From the NCBI GenBank assembly GCA_022848865.1, contig JAJISE010000009.1, positions 1 to 53,500 of the forward strand: a stretch of DNA of 53,500 bases, in the 5' to 3' direction. A program made the translations under genes and the position numbers. Source of the stretch: Candidatus Thermoplasmatota archaeon. Its GTDB lineage: Archaea > Thermoplasmatota > Thermoplasmata > RBG-16-68-12 > JAGMCJ01. The notes beneath the pieces were generated by a model, which made no database searches, was not told the DNA's origin, and was given only the letters and a program-made list of their open reading frames with translations. Shown here piece by piece: positions 31,150 to 36,919 of the stretch (the stretch's first letter is position 1; every line of letters begins with the position of its first letter).

Positions 31150-32199
31150 TTATCTGACTATTGAGATTCCGTGAGTGAGGAGGGGTTCATCGTCATAGAT
31201 CACTTGTCCCGCTGAGGGGCTGAGGAGGTTTGGCGAGTGCACGCCCGTGATTATGCTCAATACCCTGATTACGCCCGCGAAGTTTTCGTCCACTCTCGCC
31301 CCGAAGATTACGTTAGCGTCCGGGCTGAGCTGGGAGGATATCCCGTTCACGACCGAGTACGCGGTCCCGATCGAGAGGTCCGGTCCCGATGTGAGGTGGA
31401 TTAGGGCCCCGCTCGCATCAGAGTAGTCGATGTCGAGGAGAGGGTTGTTGAGCGTCTCCACGATGACCTGCTCTGGGTCGTCGGCGCATTCCTCTCCGTA
31501 GAGGATGGTCGCGGTCTGACCCGTCGACATCATCGTCTTGACGTCGGCGAAGTCCAGGTTAATGAGCGAGGGTAGAGTGATCGTCTCTGTTATTCCCCTG
31601 ATGACCTCCGATATCAGCTGGTCCATCACGCAGAACGCCTGCTCGATGGGGAGGCTGGGAACCATCTTCACGAGCCTGTTATTGTCGAGAACGATGACGC
31701 TGTCGCAGTAGCGGCGGAGCTTCTCGAGGCCCTCCTTCGCGGCCCTGCACCTTCTCTTCTCTGCGTCGAAGGGAGTCGTCGCGATGGCAACGACTACGGA
31801 TCCCATGCTCTCGGCGAGCCTTGCAACGACCGGTGCGACGCCTGTGCCCGTGCCGCCTCCCATTCCCACGGTGATGAAGGTCATGTCCGCCCCGCTGATG
31901 AGCCTCCTGATGTCGTCCTCGGCGAGCAACGCGCAGCGCTCCCCGACCTCGGGGCAGCCACCGGCTCCCATTCCTCGGGTAATGGATCTGCCGATGAGGG
32001 CCTTCTTCTCGGCTTCGATGCGGTCTATGTGCATCTTGTCCGTGTTGATCGCGACTGTCTGGGCACCGTGAACGCCAATCCGCATTAGTCTGTCCACGCT
32101 GTTGTTCCCTGCGCCACCGCAGCCGACGACCAGTATCTTTGGTTTTCCGAAGTCTACGCTCATGTCGAAGCTCCTTGCTTCCTTGACTAGATGATCCAT
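31150..32199 (-). CDS. ftsZ: Cell division protein FtsZ
   Basis: About 349 aa. Tubulin-like GTPase that forms the division ring. It begins the fold with KILVVGCGGAGNNSVDRL. The GTP-binding T4 loop is GMGGGTGTG near residue 112, and the T7 region NLDFADVKTMMSTG is near 215, with the catalytic aspartate. In the loop normally GAGGDPE the aspartate is Cys (GAGGCPE). I chose ATG 32199 because GGTGAG lies 9 bases before it; the frame is open to 32247 across a strong hairpin. A double ribbon-helix-helix regulator lies 88 bases upstream on the same strand and may be co-transcribed. Confidence 0.95.
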   Translation of the reverse strand: MDHLVKEARSFDMSVDFGKPKILVVGCGGAGNNSVDRLMRIGVHGAQTVAINTDKMHIDRIEAEKKALIGRSITRGMGAGGCPEVGERCALLAEDDIRRLISGADMTFITVGMGGGTGTGVAPVVARLAESMGSVVVAIATTPFDAEKRRCRAAKEGLEKLRRYCDSVIVLDNNRLVKMVPSLPIEQAFCVMDQLISEVIRGITETITLPSLINLDFADVKTMMSTGQTATILYGEECADDPEQVIVETLNNPLLDIDYSDASGALIHLTSGPDLSIGTAYSVVNGISSQLSPDANVIFGARVDENFAGVIRVLSIITGVHSPNLLSPSAGQVIYDDEPLLTHGISIVR

Positions 32200-32232
32200 A
32201 CCCATTATCTCACCGTTCGTTAGAGTGTGGAG

Positions 32233-32250
32233 GGAATGCTTGCGCATTCC
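32233..32250 (-). other. GNRA-tetraloop hairpin in the ftsZ leader
   Basis: On the minus (RNA) strand GGAATGC and GCATTCC form a perfect 7-bp stem closed by the tetraloop GCAA. It lies 34 bases before the ftsZ ATG and upstream of its GGTGAG site. It is not followed by a T-run, so a control element is more likely than a terminator. Confidence 0.5.
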
Positions 32251-32287: not shown

Positions 32288-32605
32288 CTAGGCCCTTTTT
32301 CTTTCGACTACTTCCGACAAGCGTCTCCGGATATACTCCCGCACGGCGTTCCTAACGGCATCCTCAACGGAGACCGAGTCGCCGCTCTTCACGAGCTCCT
32401 CTAGGTTCACGACGTTTCCCTTCGGAAGCTCGATCGTCATCTTGCGGATGTAGTCGGGGGCGAACTTCTCGTCGATGAAGTTGTTGATTGCGGCTCTGAC
32501 GGCGTCGGATATTGTTGCGAATTGTCCGCTCTCCACTAGCGCATGGAGAGCACTCACCTGTACACTTGGCACCCTGACAGTCACTCTTTCTGATTCCGAC
32601 GCCAT
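32288..32605 (-). CDS. Tandem ribbon-helix-helix DNA-binding protein upstream of ftsZ (CdrS-like)
   Basis: 105 aa made of two ribbon-helix-helix domains: residues 7-46 (ERVTVRVPSVQVSALHALVE... SDAVRAAINNFIDE) and 55-96 (RKMTIELPKGNVVNLEELVK... EDAVRNAVREYIRRR). Each has the beta strand, LVxSG turn and DAVR helix of the CdrS/NikR class, so the chain is a built-in dimer. In haloarchaea the one-domain CdrS controls ftsZ and cell division; a similar role here is inference from position. ATG 32605 has GGGA nearby. A second ATG at 32656 lies 26 bases from the TATA box and would give a leaderless 122-aa form. Palindromic operators in its leader suggest autoregulation. Confidence 0.88.
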   Translation of the reverse strand: MASESERVTVRVPSVQVSALHALVESGQFATISDAVRAAINNFIDEKFAPDYIRKMTIELPKGNVVNLEELVKSGDSVSVEDAVRNAVREYIRRRLSEVVERKRA

Positions 32606-32625
32606 GTTGATTCCCTGTAGTTCGC

Positions 32626-32663
32626 GTCGGACACCACTTTCGTATTTGTCCGACATTTGTCGG
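32626..32663 (-). promoter_or_regulatory. Palindromic operator array at the RHH-ftsZ promoter
   Basis: Reading the minus strand, CCGACA-AA-TGTCGG (32650-32663) is a perfect palindrome. It shares bases with a second inverted repeat, GTCGGACA (32647-32654) and TGTCCGAC (32626-32633), separated by 13 bases. The repeated half-site is TGTC/GACA. The first palindrome covers the predicted transcription start, about 26 bases from the TATA box, where a bound repressor would block initiation. Confidence 0.75.
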
Positions 32664-32675
32664 TAATAGCGTATT

Positions 32676-32687
32676 CTATATAAATAG
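32676..32687 (-). promoter_or_regulatory. TATA box of the RHH gene (and probably ftsZ)
   Basis: CTATTTATATAG on the minus strand is the best TATA match nearby. It lies directly before the palindromic operator array and predicts transcription start near 32656. Confidence 0.7.
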
Positions 32688-32785: not shown

Positions 32786-33859
32786 ATGAGAACCGCAGAC
32801 CCGTACTTCGTGGATCGAGGCGTCTTCAAGAGGTTTCCCCAGAGGAACATCTGCTTCAGTCGGGCAGGGTGGGACAAGGATTTCACCGCATACGGCAGAG
32901 GGATATACGACAGAGCGGAATCGAAGATGGAAAGGGGACAGGAGGGGTACGCGAGAGAGGATTACGCTGCCATGTCGGCTGCGTGGTCCGTGCACGACAC
33001 CTTGCCCCGCTCAAGAGGTCTGCGGATGGGCGGGAGCCTGTCGGCCTATGCCCCGGCGTCCAAGCCCGCAGAGACTCACGCGGACCCAAAGAGGAACTCG
33101 GAGTTCATCAGCCGGTTCGCGAAGGACCTAGGGGCCGCGGAGGTCGGGACCACGAGCCTGAACTTGGACTGGGTATACTCTCATGATGCGGAGGGAAAGC
33201 CGCTGGACCTCGAGGAGTCCGTCAGTCATGCGATCGTCTTCCTTGTTCCGATGGACCAGAAGATGCTCGCTCGTTCGCCCGGAGTGCCCGCCTCCACCGC
33301 GGTCGGTCTGGCGTATTCCAAATGCAGAACGATTTCGGAGAGCATCGCGCGTTGCGTGGCCCAGCTTGGGTACAATGCTCATCCAGCCGTGAACGAACTG
33401 GCCCTCTCCGTGCCACTGGCAATAGATGCCGGGCTCGGAGAGTTTGCTAGGAACGGGTTGCTCGTCTCGGACGTGCATGGGATGGCGGTAAGGATTGGCA
33501 AGGTTCTGACGGACATGCCGCTGCAACAACACCCGCCCGCGGATCTGGGTGTGAGGGATTTCTGCAGGAGATGCAAGCGGTGCGCGGAAAAGTGCCCGCC
33601 CAAGGTCATATCCTTTGATGATGAACCTAGCGGGAAGACGTTCTCCATCTCCAACAACCCAGGAATCGTGAAGTGGTACGTGAACGTCGACCGTTGCTAC
33701 GAGTTCTGGTGCAACAACGGAACCGACTGCTCCAATTGCATTGTGTCGTGCCCTTTCACCAAACCGGATACGTGGCCTCACAGGCTGGCCCGATCGATCA
33801 TCAGAAGGACAGGTTTGCTGAACGGACTGTTCCTGCGACTCGATCGTCTCTATCAATGA
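32786..33859 (+). CDS. Reductive dehalogenase-like corrinoid/iron-sulfur protein
   Basis: 357 aa. The C-terminal third has two [4Fe-4S] motifs in RdhA style: FCRRCKRCAEKCPPKVISF, then KWYVNVDRCYEFWCNNGTDC followed by SNCIVSCPF. The tail RLARSIIRRTGLLNGLFLRLDRLY also matches reductive dehalogenases. The middle (residues 110-250) corresponds to the nitroreductase-like corrinoid-binding domain shared with epoxyqueuosine reductase. There is no Tat signal and no RdhB anchor gene next to it, so it is probably cytosolic. The real substrate may not be halogenated. TTTTTATC centred about 30 bases before the ATG supports the start. Confidence 0.85.
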   Translation: MRTADPYFVDRGVFKRFPQRNICFSRAGWDKDFTAYGRGIYDRAESKMERGQEGYAREDYAAMSAAWSVHDTLPRSRGLRMGGSLSAYAPASKPAETHADPKRNSEFISRFAKDLGAAEVGTTSLNLDWVYSHDAEGKPLDLEESVSHAIVFLVPMDQKMLARSPGVPASTAVGLAYSKCRTISESIARCVAQLGYNAHPAVNELALSVPLAIDAGLGEFARNGLLVSDVHGMAVRIGKVLTDMPLQQHPPADLGVRDFCRRCKRCAEKCPPKVISFDDEPSGKTFSISNNPGIVKWYVNVDRCYEFWCNNGTDCSNCIVSCPFTKPDTWPHRLARSIIRRTGLLNGLFLRLDRLYQ

Positions 33860-34211: not shown

Positions 34212-34829
34212 CTAAAAGGCTTTCGCAGAGATTCCAGCGGGGCGTTCCAGGATGCCGAATCTCTGCTCTGCGAGGAAGTCGGTGTCGGGGCCAAGCTGTC
34301 TCTCCACGATGCTCTTGGCCAGGAACTCGAAGGCTTGCTGGACGTTGTTTCCCGTCTTTGCGCTCGTCATCACGACAGAGGAGGAGAATACATCGCCGAG
34401 TCTGAACACATCGTCCTCGTGGACCTCGACCTGATCGACGAGGTCGTCCTTGTTCACGATGATGCACATGGGCAGGTTCCTCACCGACTCTGGGGTTGCC
34501 GCAATCCAGTGGTCAAGACTCTCAGCCGTGCTTCTCCGCGTCACGTCACAGACAGCCAGCAGTCCCTGAACTCCGCGGAAGTACGCCTCGTCCGTGAGGT
34601 CTGACAGGGGAAGGTCCCCCATGATGTCCCACAGCGTCATGTCGATCTCAATCATCTTCTCCCGAAGCTCCAGCTGGAGCTTGACGACCTTCTTGTACAC
34701 CTTCGCGCCCATTGTCTGGCGGTACTCCCCGCTAAAATGGTCCATCATGTATCTCTCGACAAGACAGGTCTTTCCCACTGCTCTGTCACCGATTAGGCAG
34801 AGTTTGATCTTCATCTTGTCATAGTCCAC
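34212..34829 (-). CDS. Ras/Rab-like small GTPase
   Basis: 205 aa, close in size to eukaryotic Ras-superfamily proteins. G1 is GDRAVGKT (residues 14-21), switch I holds a candidate Thr in EYRQTMGAK, G3 is TLWDIMGD, G4 is VNKDD and G5 is TSAKTG. The glutamine that helps GTP hydrolysis (WDTAGQ in Ras) is replaced: the motif reads WDIMGD. Hydrolysis may therefore be slow or need a partner. There is no lipidation motif. The start is GTG 34829 with GAGGT 6 bases before it, and GCATTTAAGCC is the likely TATA box. A small membrane protein gene follows. Confidence 0.88.
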   Translation of the reverse strand: MDYDKMKIKLCLIGDRAVGKTCLVERYMMDHFSGEYRQTMGAKVYKKVVKLQLELREKMIEIDMTLWDIMGDLPLSDLTDEAYFRGVQGLLAVCDVTRRSTAESLDHWIAATPESVRNLPMCIIVNKDDLVDQVEVHEDDVFRLGDVFSSSVVMTSAKTGNNVQQAFEFLAKSIVERQLGPDTDFLAEQRFGILERPAGISAKAF

Positions 34830-35412: not shown

Positions 35413-36369
35413 TCACATGCTTTTTGTCCTTTCGAGCAGGCACGCCATCATAATTGGGAGGAACGCTGTGGCATCACCCTCGATCGTGACTTCACTGGCC
35501 TCCTCCGCCACCTTTCCCCAGGATATCCCTTCCCTCACTCGAGCTCCAGAGAGGCTTCCGTCATACTCGAGGGCCGTCGTTACATAGACGGCGTAGTCCA
35601 GACCCCCTTTGAACTGGTTCCACCACATCGTATGGTGCTTCGATATCCCGCCACCGACCATCAGGGCCCCGGTCTTCTCCGCTTCGAAGACCATGTCGCT
35701 CAGCTCCTTCTCGTCCTGGAAGACGTCAATCGTGAGGTCCTTGTGCTCCTGCCAGAAGCTCCAGACCTGATAGCCGAACGCGCCGTCCGTGATGCCGGGA
35801 ACGTATACTGGGATCTTGTTCTTCACCGCCCAGTAGAGAATGGAGCTCTCGTCATCCATGCTCGAGCCGAATCGCCACAAGAGGTCCTTGGTCGAGATCC
35901 TCCGGGTCCCCTCTTCCCACATCTGTTCGAGAACAGGCTGGATCCGCTCCTCGAGGATCTTGCCATAGCTCTCGTTCGGAACAAGGACGTTCCCAAGCCT
36001 GTTCACGCCCTCGCGGTGAAGAAGCGCGTCGTCCATGTCAAAGCTCCCGTGATAGTACTCGGCCCAACTCCTCGCCAGATCGTGGTCAACGGTTCCGCAT
36101 GTGGTGATGACTACGTCGAACCATCCAAGCTTCAGCATGTCCTTGATAATCCCCCTGGCCCCGGTGGCGATTATGCACGCGGGGAACGAGAGGAACCTCA
36201 GACAATCCTCATCCTCGATCATCCTCTGAAGTATCTCTGTCCCATCCGCCAGCTTCTTGGCTGTGAACCCTCCGGAGGCTCTCATCGCGCTCACGAGATC
36301 GCTCACGCTCATGCCCTTGCGAATGGAGATGTCCTCGACCACGTCGGACAGGACGTCCTCACGGTTCAT
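35413..36369 (-). CDS. dys: Deoxyhypusine synthase
   Basis: 318 aa. It transfers the aminobutyl group of spermidine to a lysine of aIF5A, using NAD. Family marks: SFPACIIATGARGIIKDML, VVITTCGTVDHDLARSW, the substrate region PVYVPGITDGAFGYQVW, and the catalytic GGGISKHHTMWWNQFKGG with active-site Lys near 243. ATG 36369 is the family start and has CTTTTATG about 28 bases upstream, suggesting a leaderless mRNA; a frame open to 36603 crosses the CBS gene on the other strand. The long plus-strand frame over this gene is not coding. Confidence 0.96.
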   Translation of the reverse strand: MNREDVLSDVVEDISIRKGMSVSDLVSAMRASGGFTAKKLADGTEILQRMIEDEDCLRFLSFPACIIATGARGIIKDMLKLGWFDVVITTCGTVDHDLARSWAEYYHGSFDMDDALLHREGVNRLGNVLVPNESYGKILEERIQPVLEQMWEEGTRRISTKDLLWRFGSSMDDESSILYWAVKNKIPVYVPGITDGAFGYQVWSFWQEHKDLTIDVFQDEKELSDMVFEAEKTGALMVGGGISKHHTMWWNQFKGGLDYAVYVTTALEYDGSLSGARVREGISWGKVAEEASEVTIEGDATAFLPIMMACLLERTKSM

Positions 36370-36412
36370 CGTAGACGGGTAAGCGGGACATGCATAAAAG
36401 CTCTCATGGGAA

Positions 36413-36424
36413 AGATTATTAATC
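36413..36424 (+). promoter_or_regulatory. TATA-like promoter of the CBS gene
   Basis: GATTATTAATCG is centred about 27 bases before ATG 36446. It lies close to the oppositely directed box of dys (CTTTTATG on the minus strand near 36397), so the two promoters are divergent and within 20 bases of each other. Confidence 0.5.
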
Positions 36425-36445
36425 GGTCGCGCAGATGACGCGGAG

Positions 36446-36919
36446 ATGAGGGCCAAGGATGTGATGGTCAAGGATACCATCGTTCTCTCCCCTGAGGATA
36501 CTATTGCGGATGCGGTCGAGAAGTTCGCGAAGCATAGGATCGGTGGTTGCCCTGTCGTGGATGACAAAGGATGCGTCCTGGGAATCATGACGGAAACGAA
36601 CATACTGGAATCCCTGAAAACGCACTACAAAGAGCTCAAGATGAGGGTTCCTCCTGAGACGATAATCGGAATCAGCTTCGTGGAGATCGCCAAGAAGAGG
36701 GAGGCCGTGGAGGCTTTTGAGCGGATAGCGAACACGCCTGTGAGGGATGCCATGACAAGAAAGGTCGTCACGGCTGCGCCGGATGATGAGGTCGAGGATG
36801 TGATCCAGATGATGGTCAGGAACGACGTGAACAGAATCCCGGTCGTTGACAAGGGTGTGCTCGTGGGAATAGTGACGCGCGGCGATATCCTGAGAGCTGT
36901 GCAGGGCATGCTCACCTGA
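36446..36919 (+). CDS. Two-CBS-domain protein
   Basis: 157 aa consisting of a pair of CBS domains (a Bateman module) and nothing else. CBS1 has RAKDVMVKDTIVLSPEDTIADA and RIGGCPVVDDKGCVLGIMTE. CBS2 has VRDAMTRKVVTAAPDDEVED and NRIPVVDKGVLVGIVTRGDI. Such modules bind adenine nucleotides or SAM and control partners. The partner is unknown. The stop lies directly next to the 3' end of the convergent SAP-like gene. It is divergent from dys. Confidence 0.93.
   Translation: MRAKDVMVKDTIVLSPEDTIADAVEKFAKHRIGGCPVVDDKGCVLGIMTETNILESLKTHYKELKMRVPPETIIGISFVEIAKKREAVEAFERIANTPVRDAMTRKVVTAAPDDEVEDVIQMMVRNDVNRIPVVDKGVLVGIVTRGDILRAVQGMLT

Follow-up and report, generated by a model that had tools for sequence, protein, structure and literature searches.

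In the archaeal genome studied here, a regulator with two ribbon-helix-helix (RHH) domains in one chain is encoded directly before ftsZ, and downstream of the TATA box in its promoter lies a pair of palindromes of the form TGTCnGACA that is conserved among relatives and recurs at smc and other genes. We consider it likely that these features represent a Thermoplasmata form of the cdrS-ftsZ2 system, in which a tandem-RHH CdrS would bind the paired sites, repress its own operon by feedback, and control a small regulon. According to a review, the few RHH regulators so far known account for little of the expression of archaeal cell-cycle genes (PMC7617429). An operator that can be read from the sequence would yield a testable regulon, comprising ftsZ, smc, and an uncharacterised membrane protein, across a class that includes Methanomassiliicoccus methanogens, and would provide a cis-regulatory handle on the coupling of division to chromosome organisation.

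A Double-RHH Regulator

The regulator gene lies at positions 32288 to 32605 (minus strand) of the window, by which we mean the whole stretch of 53,500 nucleotides that was analysed. It encodes a CdrS-like protein of 105 amino acids, with one RHH domain (RHH A) at approximately residues 5-48 and another (RHH B) at approximately residues 53-97. In a Pfam profile search, the protein matched PF01402 (RHH_1) in two stretches at 33.8 bits, against a cut-off of 20.5, and this match, together with the strand-helix-helix order, places it in the RHH_1, or CopG-Arc-MetJ, fold. The two halves align with a score of 71, compared with a maximum of 37 for shuffled sequences, which indicates that the domains arose by duplication and bears out the claim of an earlier note on this DNA that both are held in one chain. 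An AlphaFold2 model of the monomer, of low confidence (pLDDT 62, pTM 0.38), has four helices at the expected places, with no strands assigned and no pairing between the strands of A and B.

RHH proteins contact DNA through the ribbon strand, and their usual targets are short palindromes. Residues R7, T9, and R11 of strand A do not vary among 23 diverse and 58 named homologues, while strand B has K or R at position 55, a variable residue at 57, and the acidic E59; the linker from helix 2 of RHH A to strand B is only about six residues long. A sequence search of the PDB returned just weak matches to single RHH domains and nothing related to the tandem protein. Matches to ParD- and VapB-like proteins were also weak, and identification as an antitoxin was rejected because the gene partner is ftsZ at nearly all loci.

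Linkage to ftsZ

The next gene after the regulator is ftsZ (31150 to 32247, minus strand; TIGR00065, 361 bits), on the same strand and separated by 40 bp. The gene beyond ftsZ is on the opposite strand, so the predicted operon consists of the regulator and ftsZ only. Homologues of the regulator were found at E<=0.001 in 57 of 61 genomes (this one included), mostly at full length and with 42-100% identity, and ftsZ is downstream at 47 of the 48 loci where the contig permits the assessment (at L045 it is about 1.1 kb away); the same-strand order of regulator and ftsZ described earlier is upheld. Named matches of the double-RHH protein are from Thermoplasmata, Methanomassiliicoccus species among them. 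The strong form is largely limited to this class but is found in a few genomes of another class too, including two (G326 and G318) in which it precedes ftsZ and the sites are single or degenerate.

A tree built from 78 FtsZ rows of the class places all 23 regulator-linked FtsZ sequences on one side of one branch with support of 100/100, as a group separate from all other FtsZ of the class. Because the neighbourhood of ftsZ2 usually contains an RHH_1 gene (PMC9871819), this group fits FtsZ2, and the regulator-linked gene, as judged from this context and from a tree of class sequences, is probably ftsZ2. The genome itself has five loci of the FtsZ/CetZ type (C7:8691, C7:9951, C1:31283, C9:31240, and C19:287), of which the regulator-linked one alone has paired sites.

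Other genes around the operon in the window include one divergent from the regulator for a 357-amino-acid protein with a C-terminal double 4Fe-4S cluster domain (32786 to 33859, plus strand), a Ras-family small GTPase gene (34212 to 34829, minus strand; Pfam Ras, 101 bits), and a deoxyhypusine synthase-like gene (35413 to 36603, minus strand). In family f12 (L079, L088, and L090), a deoxyhypusine synthase-like gene is divergent from a second ftsZ, with a 22-bp pair between them.

The Predicted Operator Array at the Regulator Promoter

The core promoter of the regulator, predicted from the sequence, has the TATA box TTTATATA at 32677 to 32684 (minus strand). An archaeal TATA box predicts a transcription start about 25 bp downstream, and at this point candidate operator site 1 (TGTCGGACA, 32647 to 32655, minus strand) overlaps the palindrome CCGACAttTGTCGG (CCGACA-nn-TGTCGG, 32650 to 32663), whose outer half-site falls within a weaker site that precedes site 1 by 11 bp. 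The centre of candidate site 2 (TGTCCGACG, 32625 to 32633, minus strand) is 22 bp downstream of that of site 1.

Single sites carry little weight: the window contains 14 copies of GTCnGAC, fewer than the 24 that chance would give, and such occurrences were dropped as evidence. A search of the genome that allowed two mismatches, which gave 75 against 72 in the control, was dropped as well. The exact 22-bp pair, by contrast with these counts, occurs once in the 2.03-Mb genome, at the regulator promoter.

Conservation was assessed in 142 promoters of the same gene, reduced to 70 non-redundant ones. GTCnGAC is present in 69 of the 70, whereas the runner-up among 64 palindromes of the same form is present in 9 and a Markov control gave a mean of 2.1 and a largest value of 6. 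At least two sites are present in 56 of the promoters, and a 21/22-bp pair in 50, compared with none in 200 control rounds. The two half-sites of site 2, GTC and GAC, are equally conserved, and a profile of half-site offsets over the 70 promoters has a weaker signal at -11 and another at +/-4. In most of these promoters, site 1 follows the start of the TATA word by 26-31 bp, whereas the distance from site to ATG varies from 16 to 136 nt; the sites are therefore a feature of the promoter, not of the coding sequence. The exact 22-bp pair was found in 156 of 300 class genomes, compared with 17 for the reversed pattern (hand count). The earlier note had placed one of two palindromes over the predicted start, had proposed to check whether the array and the double-RHH form occur together before ftsZ in related genomes, and had named lack of conservation of the palindromes in close relatives as grounds for refutation; the array does lie over the predicted start, both its conservation and its co-occurrence with the double-RHH form are evident in the relatives, and the proposed refutation thus failed.

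Three genomes of one genus (G005, G010, and G016; loci L037-L039) have a third perfect site 22 bp further upstream. G050 and G060 (L074 and L075) have a second 22-bp pair, which directly adjoins a TATA word that precedes the gene of a predicted secreted protein.

Recurrence at smc, a Membrane Protein Gene, and Other Genes

Elsewhere in the genome, pairs one helical turn apart (11/12 bp) precede two further genes. One, at G000:C2:81196-81214 (GTCCGACAAATTGTCGGAC), lies before smc with a TATA box upstream; the other, at G000:C2:61115-61132, is preceded at 22 bp by a third, weaker site and lies before a gene for a membrane-type protein of 296 amino acids (G000:C2:61139-62026; L264/L298). This protein, for which Pfam and NCBIfam searches returned no match, has homologues in 25 of the 27 class genomes searched; the gene that follows it is TFS-like. 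Other pairs in the genome (C7:54678, C10:11817, and C26:11109) are located within reading frames or where these begin, lack a TATA box, and were set aside as chance occurrences.

In relatives, paired sites were found upstream of smc in 18 of 29 genomes and upstream of the membrane protein gene in 16 of 25, the runner-up palindrome scoring 0-1 in each case. Over 38 genomes, one-turn pairs number about 90, compared with 11 for the reversed pattern (hand sums). Among loci with a readable downstream gene, the genes that recur behind TATA boxes and pairs are smc, the membrane protein gene, a divergon of TPR-protein and small-protein genes, and the second ftsZ of f12; genes for topoisomerase I and a KaiC/RadA-like ATPase likewise recur, but no clear TATA word accompanies them. 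In three genomes of f24, of the Methanomassiliicoccaceae type (L376, L380, and L383), a topoisomerase IA gene follows the pairs at a distance of about 110-180 bp. In several families (L360, L361, L382, L386, and relatives), they are in the promoter shared by a TPR-repeat gene and a divergent gene for a protein of about 80 amino acids, which has no Pfam match. In f19 (G049 and G173), the membrane protein gene and smc are divergent neighbours.

The smc leader (L223, L225, L234, and other loci) also contains a GGGATG word (often GATGGGATG) that is conserved across the class, including families without paired sites; in this genome, GATGGGGTGC stands at its position (L247, near 1670, minus strand). 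A structured RNA in the leader was considered and dropped, since no consensus fold and no Rfam match were found.

The presence of the same sites at smc, the membrane protein gene, and other genes marks, in our reading, a division-and-chromosome regulon, and suggests that one regulator co-ordinates division and chromosome handling. The autoregulated cell-division switch proposed in the earlier note was accordingly too narrow in scope. The 296-amino-acid protein becomes a candidate division or chromosome gene, pointed to by its promoter alone.

Proposed Mechanism and Alternatives

In the mechanism that we favour, CdrS would have become a tandem double-RHH protein in the Thermoplasmata cdrS-ftsZ2 operon and would bind TGTCnGACA palindromes spaced by one helical turn (11/12 bp) or two (22 bp), directly downstream of TATA boxes. 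Bound over the start of its own promoter, it would block recruitment of RNA polymerase or initiation, so that expression of the regulator and ftsZ would be held by negative feedback; we infer repression, and hence this feedback, from the position of the predicted sites at and directly downstream of the start. Through one-turn pairs, the same protein would control smc and the conserved membrane protein, and in some families the regulon would add a second ftsZ, the TPR-protein/small-protein divergon, and perhaps topoisomerase I. At each palindrome, the RHH A domains of two chains would form one A-A' homodimer, and the RHH B domains would join neighbouring dimers, which would explain the whole-turn phasing of the sites. 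This division of labour, with A reading the DNA and B linking the dimers, appears the most likely, because R7, T9, and R11 are invariant, the second strand is not, and the sites are symmetric.

That the double-RHH protein is what binds the TGTCnGACA sites is likewise something we infer, from the distribution of the two among genomes. A different transcription factor, with the regulator gene as merely one of its targets, seems improbable to us. The genome has six further RHH loci as well as other regulators, and the sites are found at genes away from the regulator; yet GTCnGAC is near-universal at the regulator's own gene (69/70) and less so elsewhere, and short palindromes are what RHH proteins usually recognise. 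Loss of the array also follows loss of the regulator. In families f11, f22, and f31, where the regulator-ftsZ pair has been lost or has diverged, no smc pair was found in about 21 genomes, and the f11 loci L339 and L340 have another residue in place of T9, which is invariant elsewhere, and have lost their arrays; this co-variation comprises three families and hence few independent events. In f22, R-T-R is kept although the sites decay, and some genomes (f14, f19, and in part f29) have the regulator with a single smc site or none. We regard as highly improbable the idea that the palindromes act in RNA, as part of the 5' leader, or that they simply reflect chance or base composition. Site 2 would lie within the leader if transcription starts at the point predicted from the TATA box, but the stems are just 3-4 bp long and outer C..A combinations disrupt pairing, the window has no Rfam match, position is tied to the TATA box and not to the ATG, and the Markov control for the pairs gave 0.

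Two other readings keep the array and its binder. In one, which we hold to be possible but unlikely, each chain is an intramolecular RHH pseudo-dimer that reads a palindrome by itself, two molecules filling the array. The F-plasmid TraY monomer has a whole RHH-dimer fold in one chain (PMC12117103), and RHH A and B are clearly a duplication; the invariant R-T-R, however, is confined to strand A, with E59 and a varying residue 57 in B, whereas the half-sites are equally conserved. The short linker to strand B also argues against such a fold; the AlphaFold2 model, of low confidence, shows A and B unpaired. In the other, the bound protein activates, as CdrS supposedly does at ftsZ1, or tunes the start. 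The fall in ftsZ1 expression upon repression of cdrS in H. volcanii (PMC8406309) speaks for this, but sites at or downstream of the predicted start are where archaeal regulators usually repress, and the distance from site to TATA box is fixed; we consider activation doubtful.

In the most far-reaching reading, the double-RHH protein would be a Thermoplasmata-wide master regulator tying division to chromosome organisation, a proposition to which we give an even chance. A single 9-bp palindrome would then serve throughout, its spacing of one turn at smc and the membrane protein gene and two turns at the regulator's own operon setting the strength of control, and the membrane protein would be a new component of division or of chromosome anchoring.

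Comparison with Known Systems

In NikR, an oligomerising domain links RHH units that bind half-sites at a distance of two turns; the joining domain there is a metal-binding ACT domain, whereas in the Thermoplasmata protein a second RHH would take its place. The aCcr1 protein of Sulfolobales has a single RHH. As described in a review, it shares with the present protein the character of an archaeal RHH factor acting on a division gene, although that gene is cdvA, of the ESCRT-type division system, and not ftsZ (via PMC7617429). F-plasmid TraY likewise has two RHH units per polypeptide, but it is a relaxosome protein and an intramolecular dimer (PMC12117103), whereas the Thermoplasmata protein is a candidate chromosomal division regulator. 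In the open-licence literature we found no description of the tandem RHH form, its operator, or the link to smc.

The closest system is the cdrS-ftsZ2 locus, which is known to be conserved in haloarchaea (Darnell 2020, PMC7439475). The regulator in each case is an RHH_1 protein whose gene immediately precedes a co-oriented ftsZ, with a symmetric DNA site (reported for CdrS) and division genes as targets (predicted here). The likeness to haloarchaeal CdrS that had been drawn earlier is upheld by the NCBIfam CdrS model NF058555, a haloarchaeal model that matches both domains in two stretches at 59.8 bits, below its cut-off of 100. The protein is very probably a homologue of CdrS, predicted to work in a similar way. 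CdrS, however, has one RHH and 55 amino acids, compared with two and 105 here; given this difference and the score, we call the protein a CdrS-like double-RHH variant and not CdrS. At the Halobacterium cdrS-ftsZ2 promoter, it is CdrL, not CdrS, that has been reported (PMC7439475). In H. volcanii, ftsZ1 appears to be activated by CdrS through sites that mostly precede the start by 41-110 nt, and not repressed at the start itself; the promoter of cdrS is not among the sites listed (Liao 2021, PMC8406309). The Thermoplasmata system differs in having paired sites at the regulator's own start, smc and a membrane protein gene as predicted targets, and no CdrL.
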